From positions 1 through 37,066 of the forward strand of contig JAFGKR010000166.1 in assembly GCA_016928515.1 (NCBI GenBank): DNA of 37,066 bases. The letters run 5' to 3'. The position numbers and the translations under genes are program-made. Source of the DNA: Bacteroidota bacterium. Its GTDB lineage: Bacteria > Bacteroidota > Ignavibacteria > SZUA-365. Below, piece by piece: positions 10,622 through 25,557 of this stretch (its first letter is position 1; the number at the start of each line of letters is the position of its first letter). The notes under the pieces were generated by a model. The model was not told where the DNA came from, searched no databases, and was given only the letters and a program-made list of their open reading frames with translations.

Positions 10622-11548
10622 TCAGTCGAGGAGATACTCCTCCTCGGCATACAGCTTCATCTGAAACAGGAGATTTCGCATCATTTCACGGTACTCCTCG
10701 ACGTCGGGCGCCAGGGCGATCGTCTCTTTGTATTCATGGAATGCGTCCGTGTACAACCCGCGTTTCTCGAAATAAATACCGCGGATGAGATGCAGCGTCA
10801 CATCGTCCGCACCCATCGCGGTGAGTTCTGTATCGAGCTTCCCGAGCTCGTCCTGGATGGCCGCAACGGTATCCGCAGGAAGGATGCGAAATGTCTGGAT
10901 GTCGCTCTCCAGGTAGTCTGAGAGCCGCGTGATGCGCCAGTGGTATTGATGATCGGGAGAGAGCGCAGGCAGACTGTCGGAGAGATATCGAAACTGATCA
11001 GTGTTCAGCTTCATCCTCGTGATGGTATTGAACTGATCATCGAGAAGGATGAAGTCATATGTCTGCGCCTCGTCAGCATCCACCCACTGAAACAGTGGAT
11101 CGGTGGTCATGACCGCGTATTTCGGGAATACCGCAGTGAAGACGTCGAAGCCGCCGCGTACGGCGCCGTATACCGGATCGTCGTCCTTCTCTCGTGTCCG
11201 GTTCATTTGAGCGGCAGCGTATTCGAGAATGGAACCCGCGGTCGCTTCCCCCGCGTTGCGTCCTGCCAGTGCCTCGAATTCCGCGAGGCGTTTGGTCATA
11301 TTCTCATCGATGCTGACCAGACGGGATCTGTTAAGCATCAACTTGGCGTAACTGGCGAATGACGTCTTGACGATGTCTTTCCCGTCCAGTGTCATCCCGA
11401 CCTTCACTGCTATCCACGGACCCTTTCCGTCATCCTGATATGTCACTTTCCCTTTGGCGCTCATGACCATGAACTGAGTCTGGGCGGAGACCGCTGCCGT
11501 CGTTAGCAGCAGCACTACACCGGTCACGGTTATCTGCAGAATATTCAT
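10622..11548 (-). CDS. Secreted FecR-like / TPR-like hypothetical protein
   Basis: Signal peptide MNILQITVTGVVLLLTTAAVSAQ; GKVTYQDDGKGPWIAVKVGMTLDGKDIVKTSFASYAKLML resembles a FecR fold; C-terminal TPR-like repeat GIYFEKRGLYTDAFHEYKETIALAPDVEEY. 4-bp ATGA overlap with the upstream gene; SD gaggaggt. Confidence 0.65.
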   Translation of the reverse strand: MNILQITVTGVVLLLTTAAVSAQTQFMVMSAKGKVTYQDDGKGPWIAVKVGMTLDGKDIVKTSFASYAKLMLNRSRLVSIDENMTKRLAEFEALAGRNAGEATAGSILEYAAAQMNRTREKDDDPVYGAVRGGFDVFTAVFPKYAVMTTDPLFQWVDADEAQTYDFILLDDQFNTITRMKLNTDQFRYLSDSLPALSPDHQYHWRITRLSDYLESDIQTFRILPADTVAAIQDELGKLDTELTAMGADDVTLHLIRGIYFEKRGLYTDAFHEYKETIALAPDVEEYREMMRNLLFQMKLYAEEEYLLD

Positions 11549-13584
11549 ACTGACCTCCTCTCTGTCTGATTATCGGGAAACGCCATAGCCTGAAATTCTT
11601 CCATTGTCCACATCGGCAGGACGGGTTCGCAGTTTGGTTCCTGCCCGAAAAATGCCGGCACCGGCGGCAGCCCGTGTTGCTTGTACATGAGACCGTTGAA
11701 AATGAACAGTTCGTGTTTGCGATGCAGTTTGCATTCCGCCCATTCGCACAGCGGAGAGAGACGGATCCATGTCGCGGGGTCAATACCTCTTGTACCATAC
11801 AGACCGGGCGGGAGTTCCTGATCAGGGATCGTGCCTCCGCCAGGCGCCCCGGCGTGCCCCCCTGCGGAAAGCAGAACGGGGATACCGGTCTCCGGAACAA
11901 ACCGCAGCGACATGTGCAGAAAAACGCGCAGTGTTTGTTCCCAGAGTCGCATGACATGCGGAAGCATCAGCTCCCATTCCTCGAAATACACGAATTCGTT
12001 GAATGTCTGAAGCTCGGTCGAGAGGTAGCGCTCCTTGACGAGACTTTCGCGAAGTAACTCGCTTCTTTTCCCTGCCAGGAAACGCAGAAAGTAGCGGAAA
12101 TCGCGGTCGCCGGCACCGCAGGTCTCCATGACCTGCGCGATCTCCGGAATCCGTGCCTCCCACTGCTCCACCCTGGGATTGAGCGCATCCGGCGTCAGCG
12201 CTCGGCGACCGCTCTCTTCCATCAACCGATAGCAGTAGGCAAACTGAGGAAGCGTCAGTGCAGCATGCATGAGTCGCGTGTGTGCGAGAAACGGTTCGTT
12301 ATCGGCGAAGGCATGCGTCAACACGGTAGGGAGAGGATTGGCGCTGTCACGGAACGCGCGCCGCGTCTGCTGCTCCCGATACTGAAAGCGCAGCCAGGTC
12401 GTGAATGCATTGGCGGGAATGAACAGCAGCACGGCCGTTGCCATGAGATTGTAGCTGATCTTCCAATCGAAATAGAAAAATGCGATCAGCGGCAGAAAAA
12501 ACACCACGACCGCTTCGGTGAACAGAAGCACTGTGATGAGGACGGCGACGTGGAAGCGTCCAGGCGGTTTCGTGCGAAGAGTGCGGTACAGCGCGATGCT
12601 GAGATAGGACAACAGGAAGACCAGCAGCCAGTCGCCCCAGCCCGGAATCGGCTCGATGAAACGGTCCGTCAACAGCATGTTGATGACATTCGCGTGTATG
12701 AATGCACCCGGCATGTCCGGTCCCTCTATCCCCATTTTCCGGCCGAGCGGTGTCTTATGGGTATCATCGAGGTAAAACATCCCACCCTCATTGACGAAGC
12801 CGACGATGATGATTTTCCCTTTCAGGACATCATCGTACCGTGTACTGAATAGCACATCGTCGATAGGCACGTTCGGGATGATACTGTAATGGGAGGTGTA
12901 ATAGACGATCTGGGGTTCCGCAGGCTGCCGGAGAATGGCGTCGATGGTCGAAGGATCATACAATTCGAGCATCTTCAGAGGAAAACTCAGCCAACGCTCC
13001 CCGTCCACAACCGCATACGGCAGAAAGCGACGCACAACCCCATCCGGATCGGGCACGAGATTCGCAAAGCCGTAATGCCGGGCGACGGCCTTGACGGGAG
13101 GAAGAATATCAAACGTCGGTTGCATGTTGCGGGGATCGAAACCATTGACGAGAACGACATTTGGTACGTCCCTGATCGCGAGCCGCAGATCCTCCACCTC
13201 CATCAATCGCTCCGGAGGAAAGCGCTCAAGATGCATCTCGTCGAAAATGACATCCACACCGATCACCGCGGCACCGATATCCTGCAGGCGGTACAGCAGG
13301 GCGGCGATCTTCCCGTCGGGCGCAGGGGCGGCTTCGCCGATGTTGATGACGTAAATGCGATCGTCCATGTACTCCATATCCTTGACCGCAAAGATCGCAT
13401 CGAGGCTGACGTCCGCGATGTTGAGAAAATCGATGCGGTCGAGGATGGGGTTGAGAAAGGACGTCTCGTCTGCTTCGGGAAGGCTCTCGGAGATGACTAT
13501 CATCACCTGCACACCTAGCATCACCAGGAGCGAGGCGAGCAGGTATTCAAGACGGAAGATGTACTGGACGAGACGCTTTCGCAT
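11545..13584 (-). CDS. CHASE2 domain-containing membrane protein with uncharacterised cytoplasmic C-terminal region
   Basis: N-terminal TM, then DRIYVINIGEAAPAPDGKIAALLYRLQDIGAAVIGVDVIFDE...GKIIIVGFVNEGGMF...MPGAFIHANVINMLLTDRFIEPIPGW (CHASE2 pattern), three TM helices, about 270 aa with no recognised kinase, cyclase or GGDEF domain. Confidence 0.78.
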   Translation of the reverse strand: MRKRLVQYIFRLEYLLASLLVMLGVQVMIVISESLPEADETSFLNPILDRIDFLNIADVSLDAIFAVKDMEYMDDRIYVINIGEAAPAPDGKIAALLYRLQDIGAAVIGVDVIFDEMHLERFPPERLMEVEDLRLAIRDVPNVVLVNGFDPRNMQPTFDILPPVKAVARHYGFANLVPDPDGVVRRFLPYAVVDGERWLSFPLKMLELYDPSTIDAILRQPAEPQIVYYTSHYSIIPNVPIDDVLFSTRYDDVLKGKIIIVGFVNEGGMFYLDDTHKTPLGRKMGIEGPDMPGAFIHANVINMLLTDRFIEPIPGWGDWLLVFLLSYLSIALYRTLRTKPPGRFHVAVLITVLLFTEAVVVFFLPLIAFFYFDWKISYNLMATAVLLFIPANAFTTWLRFQYREQQTRRAFRDSANPLPTVLTHAFADNEPFLAHTRLMHAALTLPQFAYCYRLMEESGRRALTPDALNPRVEQWEARIPEIAQVMETCGAGDRDFRYFLRFLAGKRSELLRESLVKERYLSTELQTFNEFVYFEEWELMLPHVMRLWEQTLRVFLHMSLRFVPETGIPVLLSAGGHAGAPGGGTIPDQELPPGLYGTRGIDPATWIRLSPLCEWAECKLHRKHELFIFNGLMYKQHGLPPVPAFFGQEPNCEPVLPMWTMEEFQAMAFPDNQTERRSV

Positions 13585-13698: not shown

Positions 13699-16600
13699 TC
13701 AGAATCCATCGGAGAGATCGAAGCCGAAGAGCATGCCGAAATACCACCGCCATTCCTTCCCGTAGGTCACATCGGTGAACTGGAACGTCCGCGTGAACTC
13801 GTCGAGTCCGTAGGCGCCGCTGAAGAAAATGCGCGTCGGATACATGGAGAACGAAAAACTCTCCAGGCGCAGTTCGAAACCGACGTTCTTTTTGAGCGTA
13901 CCGACGGTGAACTGATCCGGTGCCATGACGGCATCACCGACATCGAAGAAGATCCCGCCGTACAGTTTGTCGAACAGGATATGCCCGATATGCAGATCCA
14001 TGCTCGGGATGATCGGGAAGCGGTATGCAAGTTGCGCGGTTGCGAGTTCGTTGCCGCCCAGCGCGTAGTAAGTATAGCCCTGCATGCCCGTGATGCCGCC
14101 GGCGTAGAAGTTGAAAAAGTCGTCGACAGGATCTCCAAGGATGGTTGCGCCGCGCAGGCGCAGGGCGAGAGTGTGATTGAGCCAGGGGAGTGCACCGGCA
14201 AACATCAGCTGCGCGTCGAAGCGATGGAAATTGAAATCCGTGTACAGTGGCACCAGCAGTCCCGTGCTTCGGTCGATCTCATAATCCCCGTTGGGATTGT
14301 AATTGTTGAATTCGTAATTGTAGAAGAGAGCAGCCCTGAAACCCACAGGATTGATTTCATGATCCCTCGTGGGCACCATGTTGCGGTAGCGCAATACCAC
14401 GCTGATGTCGTTCCCCACGAAATACAGGTTGTCCAGCGCAGGCACAAGATTGTCCGTGGCGGGATTGATGAACTGCCCGATGGTTGATGTATACCGATTG
14501 TGTGTGTACCCGACTTCAAGACGCATGCGCTCACTGAAGAGGTTGTGCCCGAGCTTCGCCGAAAATGCGAGCAGATTGAAATCCACGTCCACGCCGAGGG
14601 TGTCGTAGGAGAGACCGATCTCCGTGTTGGTTCCGCGTGTCACGTTGAACACTTCGAGCGAGAGATCCGGATAGAGCCGGAGACTGCTGAAGATCGGCAG
14701 ATCATCGCGGAAGGTGACATTCAGGTACAGATCGCGCTCGCCTTTCAGATTGATCGAGCCGCTCGCGAGAAACTCGACACGATTCAGCACATCCGTGGAA
14801 TACATCATCAATCCCGGTTTGAGCAGATTGATCCCCGTGTTTTCGGGGTTGAATTCGTCAACGCGAATCGTGGGAAAGTACATCATGCTCTGGAAAAGAC
14901 GCTCATACACCGAGGATTCATACTTCTCCACGTTCGTATCGTCGAAGCTGTTGAGCGCTTCCCAATCCCACTCCCCCGCCGATGCGATGGGAGAGGTGTA
15001 CATCCGTGACGGCAGATAGGTGTGTCCCGCCACATCGAGTGGCTTTGCGTCGCGAAGTCGAGCGATTCTGTATCCCCCCGCTGTGTAGGCTGCGTACAAG
15101 AGGTCTCCACCTTCCTTCATATCGGGCATGAACGCCCCCCCCGTCACATTGGTCAGCGGTGTGTCCTCCCCGCGTGAACCCAACTGGTGGCGGTAGATGT
15201 TGAAAATGCCCGTGCGATCGGAGGCATAGAGAATAGCGCTGCCATCGGCAGTATACCGGGGATCACGGCAGTCGAACAGGGGGTCCGCAATCAATGCCTC
15301 GAAGCCACTGCCGTCGGGACGTACACGCGCGATGCTGCGCTGCAGTCGCGGCGAGTATGCGAAGAGAATCCACTCTCCATCCGGTGACCAGCGTGGCGTG
15401 AAAATCTGTTCTCCGTTCGCGAAAGAGGTAACACTGCTGTAGCCGCTGCCGTCGGCGTTCACAATGCCGAGATTGACGGTACCGTCTTTCGCATGGACAA
15501 ATGCGATGCGGTTGCCATCGGGTGAGTAGGCGGGATTATGCGCCCGTCGTCCGTGTGTAAGCCGCTTCTCCTCTTCGGTGATCAGATCGTATTCATAGAT
15601 GTCGTAGTAGATATGCCCGTACACACTGGGATCGTTGTACTTCGCGTAGACGATCTTCCTGCCGTCCGGTGACCATGAGACGGTCGACCGGACGCCGGGT
15701 ACCACCGTCCGCTCCTTCCCGGTCTCGATGTCGTGAATGAAGAGAGAGGACTGCCCGAAGAAATCGGATGTCTTGTTCGAAATGTAGGCGAAGGATTTTC
15801 CGTCGGGGGACCAGACAGGGAAAAAGTTACCGAATCCCACGTCGGCGATCAGATCGCCCTCCACCCTTTTTGCCAGTACGGGTGCAATGCGCAGTTCGTA
15901 TTCCTTCCGTAAATGTGCGGCCCATTCTTCGTACACTTCCCTGCCGCTCTTCCCGAGCACATCCTCGAACGCAGCATCGACGGTAAAAACGAAGGGATCA
16001 CTTATAGCTCGGGTGAGGTCACGCAATCTCTCCTCCCCGTACTCCTGTGCGATGTACCGCGTGAGATTGAATCCCGCGTTATAGACACTTTCGTTTCCGA
16101 GACTGGTCTTGCCGAAGGCGCTCATCTCACCCCAGCTCAGCATGGAATCGGCAAGCACATAGCTGCGGAGAATCATGTCGCGATGCGCATCCCAGTTTTC
16201 GTACCCGAGGCGACCGCGCTGGAACTGCGCTGTTCCCTCCGCGAACCAGGGCGGCACGATCACACCGGGAAAGGGGTAGGACACCAGCAGATTGGGGAAA
16301 CCATACAGCACGTCACGCCGCCGCTCCTTCTCGTAGCCGAACCACTGGAAAGTCAGTGCCGGGACTTTTCGGCCGAATTTCATCGCAGCCTGAATCTGGA
16401 TAATGTGCGTGTACTCGTGAGCAACGACATTGCGCAGCCAGTTGTGCGTGCCGCGCAGTTCGAAATCCAGCGGCGAAGCCCAGATCTCGATCTTGTTGTT
16501 GAAGAAATACGCCGCCCCGTTCGAATAGTCGGAGATGTCCTTGACGATGAAACTCACACGGGTATCGGGCTCATGGTCGTAGAGCGATGTAATCGGACCG

Positions 16601-16797
16601 TATATGTCCTCCGCGATCTTTGCGATCACGCGGGCCGTGCGTTCCGCACCCTCGTGATAATGCACGTGGAAATGCTTTGTCGTGATCGTATACCAGTCCT
16701 TCTCCTGTGCGGAGTACGTATCTGGCTGGGCATGCACCGGAGCGTTCACAACGAAAAGAAGAAATGCCACGGAGAGGAGTGATAGATATGTGCGCAT
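13699..16797 (-). CDS. Secreted peptidase_MA-like (HEYTH) / PD40 beta-propeller / Omp85-like outer-membrane barrel fusion
   Basis: Signal peptide MRTYLSLLSVAFLLFVVNAPVHAQ; VVAHEYTHIIQIQ ... PPWFAEGTAQ; repeated WSPDGKSFAYIS / YSPDGNRIAFVH / WSPDGEWILFAY; C-terminal barrel with GGITGMQGYTYYALGGNELATAQLAYRFPI, GGIFFDVGDA and terminal Phe. Confidence 0.8.
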   Translation of the reverse strand: MRTYLSLLSVAFLLFVVNAPVHAQPDTYSAQEKDWYTITTKHFHVHYHEGAERTARVIAKIAEDIYGPITSLYDHEPDTRVSFIVKDISDYSNGAAYFFNNKIEIWASPLDFELRGTHNWLRNVVAHEYTHIIQIQAAMKFGRKVPALTFQWFGYEKERRRDVLYGFPNLLVSYPFPGVIVPPWFAEGTAQFQRGRLGYENWDAHRDMILRSYVLADSMLSWGEMSAFGKTSLGNESVYNAGFNLTRYIAQEYGEERLRDLTRAISDPFVFTVDAAFEDVLGKSGREVYEEWAAHLRKEYELRIAPVLAKRVEGDLIADVGFGNFFPVWSPDGKSFAYISNKTSDFFGQSSLFIHDIETGKERTVVPGVRSTVSWSPDGRKIVYAKYNDPSVYGHIYYDIYEYDLITEEEKRLTHGRRAHNPAYSPDGNRIAFVHAKDGTVNLGIVNADGSGYSSVTSFANGEQIFTPRWSPDGEWILFAYSPRLQRSIARVRPDGSGFEALIADPLFDCRDPRYTADGSAILYASDRTGIFNIYRHQLGSRGEDTPLTNVTGGAFMPDMKEGGDLLYAAYTAGGYRIARLRDAKPLDVAGHTYLPSRMYTSPIASAGEWDWEALNSFDDTNVEKYESSVYERLFQSMMYFPTIRVDEFNPENTGINLLKPGLMMYSTDVLNRVEFLASGSINLKGERDLYLNVTFRDDLPIFSSLRLYPDLSLEVFNVTRGTNTEIGLSYDTLGVDVDFNLLAFSAKLGHNLFSERMRLEVGYTHNRYTSTIGQFINPATDNLVPALDNLYFVGNDISVVLRYRNMVPTRDHEINPVGFRAALFYNYEFNNYNPNGDYEIDRSTGLLVPLYTDFNFHRFDAQLMFAGALPWLNHTLALRLRGATILGDPVDDFFNFYAGGITGMQGYTYYALGGNELATAQLAYRFPIIPSMDLHIGHILFDKLYGGIFFDVGDAVMAPDQFTVGTLKKNVGFELRLESFSFSMYPTRIFFSGAYGLDEFTRTFQFTDVTYGKEWRWYFGMLFGFDLSDGF

Positions 16798-16868: not shown

Positions 16869-19800
16869 TTACCTGACCACGGCGATCTTGATGATCTTTT
16901 CTCCCGTCTTCCCCCCGGCGGTGGCCTGGATGCGTGCGAGATAAACGTCGCTCTGGATGCCGGAGACATTCCATGGAATGTCGTTGTCCGTCCCTCCTGC
17001 TACGGTCGCGGTAATCTCGTCCACTTTGTCGCCCGCGAGATCATAGATCTTCACCGATACGACAGCGTCCTCGGACACGTACAAACGGATGTAGGTTATT
17101 TCGTCATAGACCGGATTCGGCCAGTTGTAGCAGCGCTCCGGTGGGAAGAATTCAGCGATCGGGGCATCCGCGGTGAATGCTCGGGTAACAGCGAACGCGT
17201 TCCGCTCGTCGCCGTCGCGGGATCGCCAGAGCAGCTGCTCTTCCGTCACCGGTGAACCGGTTTCGAACAGAAACAGCTGTCCCGATGGAGATGCTGCGGC
17301 AAGAGCAAGTTTGTCATCCGCTGACGGGAACAGTGACACATCCGCGTTTTGCTGGATTGGTATGGGAAAACCGTCGGCCTGCTTCGCACCGGTCGTGAAC
17401 TGCCAGACCTGATCCGCACCGATACCGAACACCGCGTTCCCTCCGGTTGAACGCAGATCCGCGGAAAGCGTGAAACGTGCGGGGTACGGTGCCGGATAGT
17501 AATCGACGGAAGACAGCGCCAGGTTGACCGCACGGAGTTCAGTGCCGCTGCACAGAAGGACATCAAGTCGCCCGTCGCCATCCGCATCTGCCGCACCTGC
17601 ATGAACCGGGACATCCAAGGCGATGGACGGCAGCTCAACATACTCGAACGGCAGAGTGTCAGGATCGTCCGGCCGGCTCGCAAATCCGAGACCGCGATAG
17701 GACGCTCCGAATGCTTCACGGACACCGTCACCGTCGAAATCGCCCGCCGCGGCGGTCTGAGGCAGGAAGTGTGATGGCACGCCTCGCCAGGAAATGGCAG
17801 GATCCGAGAGTGTGCCGCTCCCGGTGTCCAGGAGTTTCGGTGTGGCATACCCCGTCAGAAGTGCGGTGGACTCTCCCATCGCGAGGATACGGAACGACAG
17901 TTCCTGCCAACCGATAAGATCGGGGGAGCGATCCAGATGAGGAATGGCAGAACGGGCGGTGCTGCTGGAAACGACATACACCGTGTCCGCGTCAGGCCCC
18001 TCGACACTGAACAGCAGCTTGCCGTCGATCACTGCCGGCGGCGCGAGCAGCGCCTGATCCAGACCCGAAAACACGTACCGCAGCTGAACATCCAGCATGC
18101 CGTCCCCATTCAAATCACGTGCTGCGAGAATCCAGAGATGTGTCGTTGCGCGGACATCGCCGAGACGGGTCACAAAGGCGATGTCGGCCACACCATCCTC
18201 GTTCCAGTCACCGATCGTCGGAGGTGTGATCGTTCGCATCGAGGCATCGAGAAAGACACGGGGACCCTGCGGAAGGAACGAGGACCCGTCCTGTCGCAGC
18301 ACATAGAGTTTGACCGTGTCCGGCAGCACTTCGTGCTCGGGACTGTGCAGCAGTGAATCCGTTCCGAACAGGGCGATGATTTCGTGCGTGCCGTCTCCGT
18401 CGAGATCCGCTGTGCGCATTGCCACCGTACGGTTCGGCCCGAGATCCGTGCTTACATCGACCGGCCATCCGGCCATCGGCGCGATGGTGTTGTCGCCCAG
18501 CGCCACATCTAGTGACATGACGGGACCGCCGGCGGAGAAACGATCCATCGTTACGTGCGTAAAGGCCCCGCTGTTGGCGCGCGTATTCGGCGAAGTGTAC
18601 ATGCCGAAAGAATTCGTGTACACGGGGGAGATGTTCCCGCTGGACCAGTAGTCGAGAGGTGATCCCGTGCCGGTTTCCGTCCCGAAGACCGTCTGCACGT
18701 CCACACCGATGTCCTGTGGTCCGCCGGCCTGTTCGAGATCCACACCCTTGATGGGATGCCCGGTGTTGACCGTGTTCGCGGCGAGACGCTCGCGGATGCG
18801 GCCTTCATCGATATGCCAGATGAGTATGCCACCGTTGATGCGCACCTCCCGGTCCTCGGCGACAACACGACCACCGGGAAGCGACCAGTCGATGTCTTCC
18901 ACGTCGATGATCACACCCTTGAGTTGCGACACGTCGCCGTTGGAGAAACCCGTGGTATCCTTGGGGAAGCGCAACTGCTGTACACTCCCGCCTGATACGA
19001 AGGTGATGTTCTGCCCATCGCCGCCGAGATCCCGCTGGCGATTCTCTGCCAGCCAATACTCATCACCGGTGATGGGCACACGGAGCACGTCGGCTGTCGA
19101 TAGCGAATCGGATGCGGTGAGAAGATAGTTGTTCCTGCCCGGCGAGGCCTCACGCGGCACGGTCCACCCGAGCAGCATTTTCTCCCATGCCGATGGCTCC
19201 GGCGGACAGATGCCACCGTACGCAAAAATGCCTTCTCCATCCATCAGTCCGAAACGTCCGATACCGGTCTTTCCTGTCCTGGTATCGAAAAGATCCGGCA
19301 GCCCGGCGTACGTGCCGAAACTCGCAGCGAGCAAACCGTTGATGGTCAGCTCGAGCAAGCCCGTGGACCCGTCGAGGAGAGGGATTTCCCTGTTGTTGGT
19401 GGTGGGGATGACGGCGCAATTGGTAATGCGCGCGCCACCGGGCATGGTGATGCCATCAAAATCCTCGCCGAGCAGTCGCCGGAAACTGTCCATGGTGAAC
19501 GAGAGGGAAGGGATGTCCAACGGCGTAGGATCGAAACCCTGGATACTGACCAGGTCGATGTCCCGGCCGCGTCCCGCATGAAAAACAACGAACATGTCAT
19601 ACGCGGTGAAGTCCCTGTCCGGATACTGCTGCCCGGCAAGTGTCCACGCTTCCACCGAGAGTTCCGCCACTGGCGCTTCGGATTCCTCCCCGCGGAAACT
19701 GTACTCCCCGAGCGGCTTTGAGACGGTAATCACGCGATCGAGAACCTCACCGATGAGATATGTTTTGCGGCCTGAAACCTTCCGCACGTAATTCTCGAGG

Positions 19801-20117
19801 AAACGGAGATGATGCTGAAAGTACGCCCGGTCATGCGGCATGGGATCGAGAATCTCCGTGCCGTAGTCGTACTGATAGATCGTGCCGAATTTTCCTGTAC
19901 CGCTGGTGCGTTCGTCTTCATCTTCCTGAAAATCGACCATGACCGCCAGCACCCGCACGGTATCGGGCAGGCGGAGCAGGTTGGTCACGGAAGCACTGCG
20001 ATGCGGACTGAACGAGTGATTGAAGCGTGGTACCGGAATCTGCTGCTGGGCGGAGGCGATGCCGCCAAGGAGAAGGAACGGAAGCACAGCGGCGATCGCG
20101 TGAAAGCGAAGCATCAT
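16869..20117 (-). CDS. M6 metalloprotease-like protein lacking HExxH, with FG-GAP/VCBS-like repeats and T9SS C-terminal sorting domain
   Basis: VLAVMVDFQEDE ... AYDMFVVFHAGRG ... AASFGTYAGLPDLFDTRTGKTGIGRFGLMDGEG; repeats DLDGDGTHEIIALFG, DWNEDGVADIAFVTRLG, DFDGDGVREAFGASY, DADGDGRLDVLLCSG; CTD NWPNPVYDEITYIRLYVSEDAVVSVKIYDLAGDKV...KIIKIAVVR. Start at 20117 (or 20114) preceding signal peptide. Confidence 0.82.
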   Translation of the reverse strand: MMLRFHAIAAVLPFLLLGGIASAQQQIPVPRFNHSFSPHRSASVTNLLRLPDTVRVLAVMVDFQEDEDERTSGTGKFGTIYQYDYGTEILDPMPHDRAYFQHHLRFLENYVRKVSGRKTYLIGEVLDRVITVSKPLGEYSFRGEESEAPVAELSVEAWTLAGQQYPDRDFTAYDMFVVFHAGRGRDIDLVSIQGFDPTPLDIPSLSFTMDSFRRLLGEDFDGITMPGGARITNCAVIPTTNNREIPLLDGSTGLLELTINGLLAASFGTYAGLPDLFDTRTGKTGIGRFGLMDGEGIFAYGGICPPEPSAWEKMLLGWTVPREASPGRNNYLLTASDSLSTADVLRVPITGDEYWLAENRQRDLGGDGQNITFVSGGSVQQLRFPKDTTGFSNGDVSQLKGVIIDVEDIDWSLPGGRVVAEDREVRINGGILIWHIDEGRIRERLAANTVNTGHPIKGVDLEQAGGPQDIGVDVQTVFGTETGTGSPLDYWSSGNISPVYTNSFGMYTSPNTRANSGAFTHVTMDRFSAGGPVMSLDVALGDNTIAPMAGWPVDVSTDLGPNRTVAMRTADLDGDGTHEIIALFGTDSLLHSPEHEVLPDTVKLYVLRQDGSSFLPQGPRVFLDASMRTITPPTIGDWNEDGVADIAFVTRLGDVRATTHLWILAARDLNGDGMLDVQLRYVFSGLDQALLAPPAVIDGKLLFSVEGPDADTVYVVSSSTARSAIPHLDRSPDLIGWQELSFRILAMGESTALLTGYATPKLLDTGSGTLSDPAISWRGVPSHFLPQTAAAGDFDGDGVREAFGASYRGLGFASRPDDPDTLPFEYVELPSIALDVPVHAGAADADGDGRLDVLLCSGTELRAVNLALSSVDYYPAPYPARFTLSADLRSTGGNAVFGIGADQVWQFTTGAKQADGFPIPIQQNADVSLFPSADDKLALAAASPSGQLFLFETGSPVTEEQLLWRSRDGDERNAFAVTRAFTADAPIAEFFPPERCYNWPNPVYDEITYIRLYVSEDAVVSVKIYDLAGDKVDEITATVAGGTDNDIPWNVSGIQSDVYLARIQATAGGKTGEKIIKIAVVR

Positions 20118-20160
20118 GGAATCCCCTGGTTGATCAAGCAGGTTGCGCAGATGGATGAGA

Positions 20161-20196
20161 AACGGCTCACCCTCGGGAACAGAGGGTGAGACCGTT
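20161..20196 (-). terminator. Strong hairpin between porV and M6-like gene (terminator/attenuator candidate)
   Basis: AACGG-CTCACCCTC-GGGAACA-GAGGGTGAG-a-CCGTT (9 bp + 5 bp stem with one bulge). Confidence 0.55.
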
Positions 20197-20232
20197 ACCA
20201 GTGCAGTGCGGGCGCGGATGCACGATGCCCGA

Positions 20233-21429
20233 TCAGTTCGCGGCGTCGTCGGCCGGGATGCGCGTACCGTCATCCTCCGGTCCGCCGGCGCGATTCCAGT
20301 TCACGGTCAATGTGAAACGGAGCGTCTCGGACAGCGGACTCGGTGTATCGTCATCGGAAATCGCGGTTGAGATGTAACTGAAATCGAAGCCGTAGATGTC
20401 ATAGCGCACACCGGCGCCGAAAGTCAGGAAGCGGCGGTTGCCCTGACTGGGATCCTCGTGGAAGAAACCGAAGCGCAGACCGACCAACTGCGAGTACCAG
20501 TACTCGAAGCCGGTCCCGAGCGTAAAGGTGTTGAACACGCTCCCCGGTGTATCCCAGCTGTTGAAGATTGCCTTGTAGAAGGGGTCCGCCTTCTTGCGGG
20601 TCTCGTCCTCCGTACGGCTGACCAGCAGCTTGGTTACATCTGTCGTCCAGGTCAGCGTGTTGTATTTCTCATGCACGAGGTCGTACGCGAACCCGAGTCT
20701 CAGCGCCGTCGGTAGAGGATCGGACTGATCCTCATCAATGTAGCTCAACGAAGGACCGATGTTGGTGATGGATGCACCCAGCGAAAAGCGGTCACCGATG
20801 TCGGTATCAGTGAACGGGAGCACCAGCTTGGAGGGACGATACAGGAAACCCAGATCGCCCGCGACGGCAGTGGCCGTGCCGGACCCTTGCTCACGCGCGG
20901 TTCCGACGGTGGAGAGACTGCTGTGTATCAGCTTGAGGCCGATCCCAATGCCGAAATCCTCATCGAGCCGTGTGCCGTATGAAGCCGTGAAGGCAACCTC
21001 GTAGCTCTTGAAGAAACCGAGGGAATTATTGCCCTCATCACGACGCTCGAATTCACCGAGGTTCAGAAAGGTCAACGCGGCGCCAAGCGTTCCTCCGGTG
21101 GAGGGAACGTCCATCTTGTATGCGGCATACTCGAAAAACAGATCGCTCTGCTGGAATTGCGGCAGCCAGTTGGAGTGGTTGAGACTGAGTTCCATTCCCT
21201 TCTGGAAGCCGAGGCCGGCCGGGTTCCAGAAAATGGCGGAGACATCGTCCGCGATCGCCACACCGGCTTCACCCATTGCACTGTTGCGCGAGCTGGGGGA
21301 AATCAGCATGAAGGGAACCGCGGTACTGGTCTGCGCCATAAGATCCTGTGCGAATGGCAGCAGCATCAGGACCACCGCGATGGCACAGAAAAGGGATTTG
21401 CTCTTGCGAATCATGTGAATCCTCATCAA
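20233..21429 (-). CDS. porV: PorV/PorQ family outer-membrane protein (T9SS)
   Basis: Signal peptide then PFMLISPSSRNSAMGEAGVAIADDVSAIFWNPAGLGF, characteristic PorV N-terminus; beta-barrel-like remainder; directly downstream of porU. Confidence 0.88.
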   Translation of the reverse strand: MMRIHMIRKSKSLFCAIAVVLMLLPFAQDLMAQTSTAVPFMLISPSSRNSAMGEAGVAIADDVSAIFWNPAGLGFQKGMELSLNHSNWLPQFQQSDLFFEYAAYKMDVPSTGGTLGAALTFLNLGEFERRDEGNNSLGFFKSYEVAFTASYGTRLDEDFGIGIGLKLIHSSLSTVGTAREQGSGTATAVAGDLGFLYRPSKLVLPFTDTDIGDRFSLGASITNIGPSLSYIDEDQSDPLPTALRLGFAYDLVHEKYNTLTWTTDVTKLLVSRTEDETRKKADPFYKAIFNSWDTPGSVFNTFTLGTGFEYWYSQLVGLRFGFFHEDPSQGNRRFLTFGAGVRYDIYGFDFSYISTAISDDDTPSPLSETLRFTLTVNWNRAGGPEDDGTRIPADDAAN

Positions 21430-21480: not shown

Positions 21481-24400
21481 TTAGCGCACGACCAGAATTT
21501 TGCCCGATGCTTCGCTTCCGAGCGTTCCGTCTGCGGTACGGCAGACGATGCGATAGATATACATACCGGTACCGAGGGGTACCCCGTCCATACTCCGTCC
21601 GTCCCACGGGATATCTACGACGCGCGCCGTTACGGCTTCGCGACGGATGTGGCGTTCCAGACGACCGGCGGTGGAGTAGATGAGGACGTCGACGTTAAGC
21701 GGGTCGAGCACGTTGTGCCGGAAGGTAAACGTGGTGCCGCCCACAATGGGATTCGGGAAGTTTGCGACATCCTGCAGGGACAGTCCGCCGACGACGGTGA
21801 ATGGCGTTTGCACCGTCGTGGAATTGTTGAAGATGTCCCATGCACGCAGTCGCAGGACGTGCGGACCCGGGGCGAGATCACGCAGGCGGTATTCCACCGT
21901 GCCGCGCTGATACGAATCGATGTCACCCTTGTAGTGAGCGTTGAGAACAATACCGGCATTGGTGTCATCCAGCCAAATCTCGATATCGTGACCGATACCG
22001 AGGCCGGTGGTATTGATGCCGCTCTCGTCGAAAAGATCGGCGATAAGAAGGGGATCCGTTCCGGTTTCGTCTCCGGATCGAAAAGTTCGCGCATCCATGA
22101 ACAGCTCGACGACCGGGCCTTCGGTATCGGGCGTCACCGTGGAGTCAGATCCCCCGACGCGCAGATCGCTGAAGAATCCCGCACCGTCAGTTTCGCCGTT
22201 ATCGAAATACATTGAAATACGACCGGTCCGATCCTCATACGAAATATCCTTCGGGACGATGAATTCCACCGTGAACCGCCCGTTGGCGATTGTCGCCTGT
22301 CCGCGGTAGAGTAATCCGCCGGGCATGGTGTAGGTGAATTTTCTCCAGAGAGTATCCTGCACAATGACACGCCGTTCTGCATCAAACAACCGCAATTCCA
22401 GCGTCCCGGTGAATGCACTCCACACGTCACCGGCGGCCGTCCGTACGCTGCCCTCGATGGTAACGGTACTCAGGGCCCGCAACTGCAGGGTGTCACCGGT
22501 TATGGGAAGACCGTTTATAAGCACTCGCTCGACGGTGGCGCGGTACCGGGGCAGTGCCAGGCGCAGCGCCGGATCCGCGAACAGATGAAACTTCTCATAG
22601 CCGGCAACACCGAAGTAGCGCTGTTTTGCAGAGGAGATCGCGTCTCCGATGCGCTTGGCGCGACCGTCCTCTTCCCTTCCCTCCACGAGCAGATGACGGA
22701 AAAATTCCTTGTTGAAGGCGCTGTTTTCCGTCGAGAACACGACGCGTGGGGCGGAAAGACCGCCGATAGCTCCGCCGTTCTCATGCAGCAACATCAGCTC
22801 CGTACCGCTGCGCAGCTCGGGCGCATCGTACAGACCGAATGTGCAGGTGGCTGCGGAGACAAATGTCAGGCGATCACTGTTGGTGAACTGGGGGATGCTG
22901 ATATCGGAGTCGAAAATCCGCTCGTGCGCCCAGATATCATGCGCCCCATGGCCGGTGTAATTGAGAATCAACGTCCCGTCATTCACCTGATCGATAATCC
23001 CTCGAAAGGCATCGGGTTTTGTGCGTCCCTGCGTCGTGATCTCGGTACGATACGAGACGATATAGATTTTTTTCTGCTCGATGTCCGAAGGGATGAGGGC
23101 AGACAGTTCCTCGGACTGCGATGTATGCTGCTGCAGATCGGTATCGCGATATGTCGTCCATCCGTCATCAGCAACGAAGGTGACGTGGTTTTTCCACGGA
23201 TCGAAATCCGGATCGCTCTCATACCGGATGATCTTGTCCACGACGAGATTCGCCTCATCGATCGTCAACACGGGGATCCTTCCGGTTGCGAGATCCACAC
23301 GGCTGTCGGTTCCGACAACCTTGGCGTAATAGTCATCCGTCGCGTACGAATTGATGCGACTGGTCGAATTCTCCGTCTCCCAGACCGGTACCAAAATCGG
23401 CTCTGTCGTCGTGAAGTTCCGGTAGTCGTAGTGCCCGTCCCCGAAAAAGAGCACGTACCGCGGCTGCACCGACCAGTTCTCCATGGCCCAGGCAAGGAAA
23501 TCCCGAATCGCGGTGGGATCGGTAACTCCATAGTTGAATTCGTTGTAAATCCACTCCATGGGAATGACCATGGAACTGATGAACTCGTCTCCGCCTCGTT
23601 CGCGGTGTGCCTTCAAGCGTTCCGCGGCGGGTATGAGAGAGGCGTGCGTGATGATGAGGTGTTCCGCTCCCCCCGAGGCCATCAGCGGAGAATTCGTAAT
23701 GCCCGCGACCCCTGCCGCGGTCTTCAGGGCGGGAGCTGCGACCGCGAGAAACTGCCGGGGATTCCCCTCCGTGTTGCGGATCTGGAAGCGCACCGTGCCG
23801 CCGCTGATCTGCGCATCGACAATGCGCCGGACATTGGCATCGTCTGTGACGTCATAGAGGACGATATCGGAGGTCGAAAAGCCGTTCAGAACGAATTGAA
23901 TGACTGCGGTCGTGTCGGGAGCGGAGAAAAGCAGTTCGTCATTGAGCGGTTCGAATCGCCGTGCATACTGCCATTCCACCCAATCGACATATCCTCCGCG
24001 GGCGCGATCCGCGGGGGACGCGCTGTAGGTGATACTGAGCATCGAGCGTTCATCGGCGAGCTGCCCGCTGCCGGTGAATTCGCGGATACCTGACAGCTTG
24101 GCCATGTCGCCAGTGTCAGCTCCGAAATCCACGACAAGCATGTCCACCATACCAAGCGGGGTATCATTGGCTCGAATGCTGAAGGAATTGCTGACTTCCG
24201 AGCTGGAGACAAGCTGCATGCGGTACAGGACAGGCTGTTCCTGCACGAGTCCGTGCAGCTTGCGGGTGTACACGGCAGCGGATGCGCTGCCTGCCCCGGG
24301 CACGAGGCGTTTGCCAACCCAGAGCTTCCCGGAGTTCTGCACGTTGACTGCCTCCTCTTCCTCGAATTCACGACCGATGAACCAACGCGGTTCGTAGGCA

Positions 24401-25482
24401 CCGGTTTCATTGAGTGCCGTTTCTCCGGTGATACGCTTGCCGGATACACCACCGAAGGTCAACAGGTAGGAATTCACATCGTCGTAGCGATGGATGTAAT
24501 GATCGTAGCGTCTGCTGGCCGCATTCCAGGAAAAGCCGCTGAGTCCCTGTGCGTAGAACTGCACGAAGTCCGCTTCGTCAAATCGTCCGTCTTCACCGCC
24601 AAACACTTCGATCGCGATTTCACGCAGGGGCTCCGATCCCGGTGCACCAAGCTGCTGCGGCCGTTCACGGCCACCGCTCCCGAACAGGCGAATGGTTCGC
24701 GGGTCCACGCCCGAGACATCGATGCCGGCATCGATGAACCAGCGCCGGTCGAGACGATAGATGCCGGTCTGCTGCACGTCGATACGATACCAGGTCCCTG
24801 TGGCAAGCGTGACGTCCGCACTGCCGCGCGGCAGCGCCACGCGATGTACATACTTCCATTGTGACGCCTGTGCCACGTTCAGCACCTCCGGAATAGTCTC
24901 GTCGCGGAAATCCCCATTGACGACATCCGAATCGCGGGGACCAAACTGCACGCGAAACCGTATCCGAGCGTAAACACGTGCGGTCGCGGTGGCAGGATTC
25001 CACTGTACGGGGGAAAGCAGGAGATCACCGACAACGCGGTCGCGGATAATACCGACCTGTTCCAGCACAGCAATTTCCTGCGGAAGCATGCTGTCCAGTT
25101 CGTAGCATGCACCCGGAGTGAATGTCTCCGTCAACGCATCACCGATTCTCCGGTACCCCGGTACGGGAGCGATATGCACATTGACAATGTCGCGATAGTC
25201 CACCTGGAGGATTTCGATTCGGTGACCGCGCAGACCGGGCAGGGCGAGAAGCTCCTTGCGGAAACGCAGGTCCGGTTCCCTGGCGTGGGAAACGTCCAAT
25301 GCCGTCGCACCATCGAATGTAAACACACTCCCTGCGGAGGCAACAGCGGTTCGTGTTACGGCGGGCCGGTATTCCAGGGTGACCCCGCTCTCATCCATGG
25401 AAAGAATCCGGAGGTCCTGACCCGCCGCCGTGAAAAGGAGGAGCAATCCTCCGACAACCGTCATGAGCATTGACTTCAGCAT
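21481..25482 (-). CDS. porU: Type IX secretion system sortase PorU (C25 gingipain-like)
   Basis: LILNYTGHGAHDIWAHERIF (catalytic His region), LTFVSAATCTFGLYDAPELRSGTELMLL (catalytic Cys region), RYVLFFGDGHYDYRN; C-terminal CTD-like VANFPNPIVGGTTFTFRHN...GKILVVR; adjacent to porV. Confidence 0.93.
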   Translation of the reverse strand: MLKSMLMTVVGGLLLLFTAAGQDLRILSMDESGVTLEYRPAVTRTAVASAGSVFTFDGATALDVSHAREPDLRFRKELLALPGLRGHRIEILQVDYRDIVNVHIAPVPGYRRIGDALTETFTPGACYELDSMLPQEIAVLEQVGIIRDRVVGDLLLSPVQWNPATATARVYARIRFRVQFGPRDSDVVNGDFRDETIPEVLNVAQASQWKYVHRVALPRGSADVTLATGTWYRIDVQQTGIYRLDRRWFIDAGIDVSGVDPRTIRLFGSGGRERPQQLGAPGSEPLREIAIEVFGGEDGRFDEADFVQFYAQGLSGFSWNAASRRYDHYIHRYDDVNSYLLTFGGVSGKRITGETALNETGAYEPRWFIGREFEEEEAVNVQNSGKLWVGKRLVPGAGSASAAVYTRKLHGLVQEQPVLYRMQLVSSSEVSNSFSIRANDTPLGMVDMLVVDFGADTGDMAKLSGIREFTGSGQLADERSMLSITYSASPADRARGGYVDWVEWQYARRFEPLNDELLFSAPDTTAVIQFVLNGFSTSDIVLYDVTDDANVRRIVDAQISGGTVRFQIRNTEGNPRQFLAVAAPALKTAAGVAGITNSPLMASGGAEHLIITHASLIPAAERLKAHRERGGDEFISSMVIPMEWIYNEFNYGVTDPTAIRDFLAWAMENWSVQPRYVLFFGDGHYDYRNFTTTEPILVPVWETENSTSRINSYATDDYYAKVVGTDSRVDLATGRIPVLTIDEANLVVDKIIRYESDPDFDPWKNHVTFVADDGWTTYRDTDLQQHTSQSEELSALIPSDIEQKKIYIVSYRTEITTQGRTKPDAFRGIIDQVNDGTLILNYTGHGAHDIWAHERIFDSDISIPQFTNSDRLTFVSAATCTFGLYDAPELRSGTELMLLHENGGAIGGLSAPRVVFSTENSAFNKEFFRHLLVEGREEDGRAKRIGDAISSAKQRYFGVAGYEKFHLFADPALRLALPRYRATVERVLINGLPITGDTLQLRALSTVTIEGSVRTAAGDVWSAFTGTLELRLFDAERRVIVQDTLWRKFTYTMPGGLLYRGQATIANGRFTVEFIVPKDISYEDRTGRISMYFDNGETDGAGFFSDLRVGGSDSTVTPDTEGPVVELFMDARTFRSGDETGTDPLLIADLFDESGINTTGLGIGHDIEIWLDDTNAGIVLNAHYKGDIDSYQRGTVEYRLRDLAPGPHVLRLRAWDIFNNSTTVQTPFTVVGGLSLQDVANFPNPIVGGTTFTFRHNVLDPLNVDVLIYSTAGRLERHIRREAVTARVVDIPWDGRSMDGVPLGTGMYIYRIVCRTADGTLGSEASGKILVVR

Positions 25483-25557
25483 ACGCACCTGGCGTTTTTC
25501 GACGTGCACGACAACACGCAAACTCCGTACTTCAGCAACACGGGGCAATACAAAAGT

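Follow-up and report, generated by a model that had tools for sequence, protein, structure and literature searches.

The region studied here lies in a window of 37,066 nucleotides, the whole stretch of DNA that was analyzed, from an uncultured Ignavibacteria member of the Bacteroidota. The minus strand of the window carries, in order, porU, porV, a gene for an M6-like protein (M6i) and a gene for a 1032-residue protein, referred to below as the partner. The product of porU (21481–25548), the T9SS sortase, matches NF033707 with 943 bits and that of porV (20233–21429), the type A cargo shuttle, matches NF033710 with 263.8 bits, which confirms the placement of the M6-like gene beside porU and porV in a preliminary description of the locus. 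The partner gene occupies positions 13699–16797 of the minus strand and is directly followed on the same strand by a gene for a CHASE2-domain membrane protein (11545–13584), the C-terminal part of which belongs to no known family.

The listed M6i open reading frame (minus strand, 16869–20273) is open throughout. Its likely start is the ATG at 20117, giving a coding region of 16869–20117 and a protein of 1082 residues with a signal peptide, in keeping with the preliminary description of an intact frame of more than 1000 codons. From this ATG the translated N-terminus (MMLRFHAIAAVLPFLLLGGIASAQ) reads as a signal peptide, which comprises residues 1–24, ends in GGIASAQ (minus strand, 20046–20117) and forms a helix over residues 3–22 in the predicted model. 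An M6-like domain (about residues 53–540; minus strand, 18498–19961) harbors a fossil cleft segment (residues 255–318; 19164–19355) and is followed by an FG-GAP/β-propeller region (about residues 560–980; minus strand, 17178–18440) with matches to PF13517 and PF01839. Finally, a C-terminal T9SS type A sorting domain (CTD; minus strand, 16869–17123) ends in IKIAVVR. Both the FG-GAP-like repeats and the sorting domain had been described before and both stand: the repeats reach an E-value of 8e-12 and the tail scores 23.9–24.0 bits against TIGR04183 (cut-off 23), with 26.3 bits against Pfam PF18962 (cut-off 27). In an alignment of homologs K1077, near the C-terminus, is the invariant lysine of the CTD.

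The AF2 model of M6i has a pLDDT of 88.9 and a pTM of 0.87. With the whole model as query, Foldseek matches are dominated by the propeller and the CTD, no M6 structure is among the best matches, and the best E-value in the PDB (2.7e-9, with a TM-score of only 0.13) is that of PorZ (PDB 5M11; NF052228) from the Porphyromonas attachment complex; searched by sequence, the PDB gave no match to M6i up to an E-value of 1. PorZ is, like M6i, a CTD-bearing T9SS β-propeller protein, but it contains two propellers and no M6 domain, and PF21544, the profile of its N-terminal propeller, has no match in M6i. Moreover, 49 of 56 sampled genomes contain PorZ; the source genome is one of them and encodes it as a separate protein on contig C289, and most M6i genomes carry a separate PorZ. 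M6i as a replacement for PorZ was therefore rejected as a general explanation.

M6i scores 732.6 bits (cut-off 600) against NF052323, the NCBIfam release 20 model named 'T9SS-dependent M6-like inactivated metalloprotease' (T9SSA_dep_M6i), which also matches 27 of 27 aligned homologs. By this profile match M6i is a member of an already named family, from which the protein itself does not differ. Since the family is curated with 'inactivated' in its name, the pseudoprotease core of the finding is not new, and the novelty of a dead M6 protein is not borne out. The open-licence literature yielded no description of the NF052323 family, name searches returning irrelevant papers, and in no paper found there are the porV linkage and one-to-one partner protease reported; these two features appear to be new and can be tested. 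The closest named relatives of M6i are from uncultured Ignavibacteria (L123 and L124).

Loss of the zinc site in the M6i family

HExxH is the zinc motif of true M6 proteases. At this position M6i reads AASFGT (gct gcg agt ttc ggc acg, minus strand, 19328–19311), with YAGLPDLFDT...GIGRFGLMDG directly downstream. As reference for a profile-profile comparison with hhalign we used L073, L091 and L075, true M6 proteins from the same phylum that contain HEYGHxxGLPD. M6i matched these with 99.9% probability and an E-value of 6e-34 over 327 columns, covering residues 107–540. In the alignment the HEYGH of the true M6 proteins lies opposite ASFGT and GLPDLYD opposite GLPDLFD, and the downstream GLPDLYDT, LM, EYxLIENR and HVD segments keep register between the two families. 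The preliminary reading that AASFGT replaces HExxH is thus exact to the base. Its assignment to M6 holds in part: the domain is alike in profile to immune inhibitor A and the M6 metalloproteases, but the Pfam M6 profile PF05547 has no match in M6i, TIGR03296 reaches 40 bits against a cut-off of 110.8, and the zinc motif is absent throughout the M6i family. As judged by these profiles, M6i is related to M6 yet lies outside the curated M6 limits.

The loss is conserved, as none of 150 aligned M6i homologs has HExxH at this site (19311–19328). The position of the old first His is Ala, Ser or Gly, that of the old Glu is Ser, Thr, Asn, Met or Gln (exceptions being one Ile and one Cys) and that of the old second His is Ser, Asn or Thr, while the Asp and Leu of GLPDL are invariant in all 150. 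Near the old site N260, G261, P274, D275, L276 and D293 are invariant, as are H180 and W434 elsewhere in the M6-like domain. A substitute motif was rejected: the window protein contains no HExxH anywhere, and one homolog (L007) has an unrelated HEMAH at residue 138.

The former cleft is also the most constrained part of the protein. The median dN/dS is 0.112 for whole M6i (17 pairs), 0.021 for residues 255–318 (14 pairs) and 0.062 for the CTD, and the propeller, at 0.19, is least constrained; for the window protein and L124 (72% identity) the values are 0.112 overall and 0.028 in the cleft segment. Single values are rough because several pairs have high dS, and the ranking of the regions is alike in nearly all pairs. 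Strong purifying selection (about 0.11 overall and 0.02 in the cleft), combined with absence of HExxH from 150 homologs, indicates that the loss is long-standing and maintained by selection rather than a sign of decay. That the dead cleft is so constrained suggests that something is still bound there.

The predicted partner metalloprotease

The partner protein (1032 residues) consists, by its motifs and predicted model, of a metalloprotease domain, a TolB-like propeller and a BamA-like barrel. With a pLDDT of 87, the model has a mixed α/β domain, a propeller that matches TolB and a 16-strand barrel that matches BamA. In contrast to M6i, the partner has an intact zinc motif, HEYTH (minus strand, 16405–16419), accompanied by WFAEGTAQ (minus strand, 16225–16248; WxAEGTAQ as a motif), in which Glu187 is the presumed third zinc ligand. 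HExxH is present in 63 of 63 partner proteins, and H127, E128, H131, W184 and E187 are invariant in 49 aligned members, with Q191 likewise invariant. The Peptidase_MA_2 profile is matched by 13 of 13 partner proteins, the window copy scoring 29.3 bits (cut-off 32.4), and no NCBIfam model over its cut-off names the protein. From these motifs the partner is a predicted gluzincin-type metalloprotease, apparently catalytically active.

A domain N-terminal to an even-stranded BamA-like barrel is usually periplasmic. By this topology the protease domain of the partner would be periplasmic, while M6i should end outside the cell, and this placement is the main difficulty for a complex at the surface. 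Peptidase_MA-like domains with intact HExxH, fused to a TolB-like propeller and a predicted 16-strand BamA-like barrel, also occur at loci L033–L072, L103 and L114. Separately, genome G164, which has no M6i, contains a 973-residue frame (C15:782474–784090) with weak partner matches of 182 and 86 bits that represents a distant relative.

Co-occurrence of M6i and the partner

Of 395 genomes searched across the phylum, 152 contain both genes and 243 contain neither; no genome had only one. The presence limit for both (E 1e-100) was our own choice, yet the gap to the negative genomes is wide: with no limit applied, a search of 33 of these gave about 1e-54 as the best partner match, and M6i matches in negative genomes reach about 1e-13 at best, mostly via the CTD. 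The two genes are 862 kb apart in G005 and on different contigs in G013, G079, G087, G133, G180, G271 and G280. Four genomes (G151, G227, G250 and G286; loci L203–L206) have lost M6i and the partner together, with porV and the flanks retained. Mapped on a PorV tree, the presence of the genes switches at least 5 times across supported branches, and 8 times on the best tree, with both genes changing together at every switch; with n=5 pairs, a sign test on these changes cannot reach 0.05. The gene neighbourhood and co-occurrence show functional coupling of M6i and the partner, as distinct from binding.

Linkage to porV and lineages without PorU

In 71 of 71 named loci and 73 of 73 others, or 144 of 144 with enough flank to test, the gene directly preceding M6i on its strand is porV; the two sets share some identical contigs and are thus not fully independent. 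The porU gene is located upstream in 89 of 93 loci; of the others, L048 has it on the opposite strand, L054 and L192 do not have it within reach on the contig, and L103 has lost it. M6i and porV stay adjacent also at loci where porU has been lost or lies at another place.

Twenty genomes, all of family f33 (ten of g112, eight of g103, one of g167, and G061 of g96), gave no PorU match at E 1e-20. SprA is kept in all 20, porV is present in all 10 tested and M6i is kept in 16, the remaining four being those that have lost the pair. The presence of M6i thus follows PorV rather than PorU, and a role as a PorU-specific partner is weakened accordingly. PorU resembles M6i as a CTD-bearing T9SS component of the same gene cluster, but it is a live C25 cysteine protease, and M6i outlasts its loss. 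The PorU-less genomes have 5–33 CTD matches, by which M6i as the sole remaining T9SS cargo there was rejected. At L103 and L208 (genomes G266 and G061), as in their f33 relatives, PorU is lost and SprA, PorV and several CTD proteins are kept; in G266 a PorZ match is also absent. Elsewhere in the same class, PorU of loci L105–L113 scores about 700–810 bits, compared to about 890–975 elsewhere; these families have neither M6i nor the partner protease, and their PorV proteins, L109 having yielded none, form one group.

Discussion

We propose, with the balance for and against about even, that M6i is a CTD-bearing partner of PorV without cutting activity and forms one unit with a live protease borne on a barrel. 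The M6-derived protein would first be exported by Sec. Its type A CTD would then take it out via SprA/PorV, after which it would remain on the cell surface close to PorV, like PorU and PorZ in Porphyromonas. Together with the product of the adjacent gene, the metalloprotease with the outer-membrane barrel, it would form a functional unit; any cutting would be done by that protease, and the fossil M6 cleft would hold a partner or peptide without cleaving it. In the solved translocons, a conserved CTD lysine is in contact with PorV (PMC10994853). PorU and PorZ are precedents for CTD proteins that stay behind as parts of the T9SS machine (PMC8545088). The one-to-one ties of M6i to porV and to the partner, with constraint on the cleft rather than on the propeller, suggest that it is part of the secretion apparatus. 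In terms of sequence, the proposal is founded on the family-wide catalytic loss, selection on the cleft, the porV linkage, and co-occurrence and co-loss; we infer export, surface retention, physical association with either PorV or the protease, the binding of a ligand in the cleft and the target of the unit. Given the predicted periplasmic placement of the protease domain, M6i and the partner may meet only in transit or never.

More tentatively, and with doubts that outweigh our confidence, PorV, M6i and the partner could constitute an undescribed T9SS module in which M6i, itself exported by the T9SS, guides a live outer-membrane protease that processes or quality-controls T9SS cargo, a module widespread in Bacteroidota lineages, absent from those of the model organisms and able to persist without PorU.

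A free-standing surface binding or adhesion protein, as suggested in the preliminary description, is less likely than a part of the secretion machine, being weakened by the invariable porV linkage, the all-or-none co-occurrence with the partner and the constrained dead cleft. In this reading, which we consider rather unlikely, M6i would be the dedicated cargo of PorV, encoded beside its shuttle. Its signal peptide, CTD and FG-GAP propeller fit such a role, and type B substrates do pair with PorP/SprF-like shuttle genes (PMC12618676). However, type A cargos all rely on PorV (PMC12618676), which makes a cargo of its own unexpected. A propeller is a usual binding surface, and that of M6i is under the weakest constraint in the protein. 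The one-to-one occurrence with the partner protease is also left unexplained.

The perfect co-occurrence and co-loss would be accounted for if the partner handled M6i in the periplasm or at the outer membrane, with M6i as its substrate, its inhibitor or a guide for its folding, the final role of M6i being secondary. A two-gene unit of an inactive protein and an active protease has a precedent in the M16B α/β pairs such as MPP (PMC11266112), although the subunits there are homologous, whereas M6i (M6-like) and the partner (Peptidase_MA-like) are unrelated. We regard this as unlikely, as it does not explain why the constant neighbor of M6i is porV rather than the protease gene.

The extreme conservation of the cleft, with its invariant residues and the invariant H180 and W434, would also be explained by a rebuilt enzyme in which the M6 cleft performs different chemistry. 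The three old catalytic positions are, however, small or polar and vary by lineage, providing no fixed nucleophile or set of metal ligands, and make such an enzyme improbable. Finally, a decaying pseudogene, a strain-specific mutation or an assembly artefact, for which we found no supporting point, is refuted by the 150 homologs with the same loss and is as good as dismissed by the 1082 open codons, overall dN/dS and confident predicted fold, in line with the preliminary view that this is not a decaying gene.

Knowledge of the T9SS comes mostly from Porphyromonas and Flavobacterium. On the genomic evidence, the M6i–partner pair would be best explained as an accessory T9SS module that is absent from the lineages of these two model organisms. 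The pair would also be unusual in linking a pseudoprotease with a live protease to which it is not related. Those PorU-less lineages that retain SprA, PorV and the pair offer a natural test of how CTD proteins are handled without the sortase. That a porV-linked pair is kept or lost jointly over 395 genomes suggests that many Bacteroidota use T9SS parts that the models lack.
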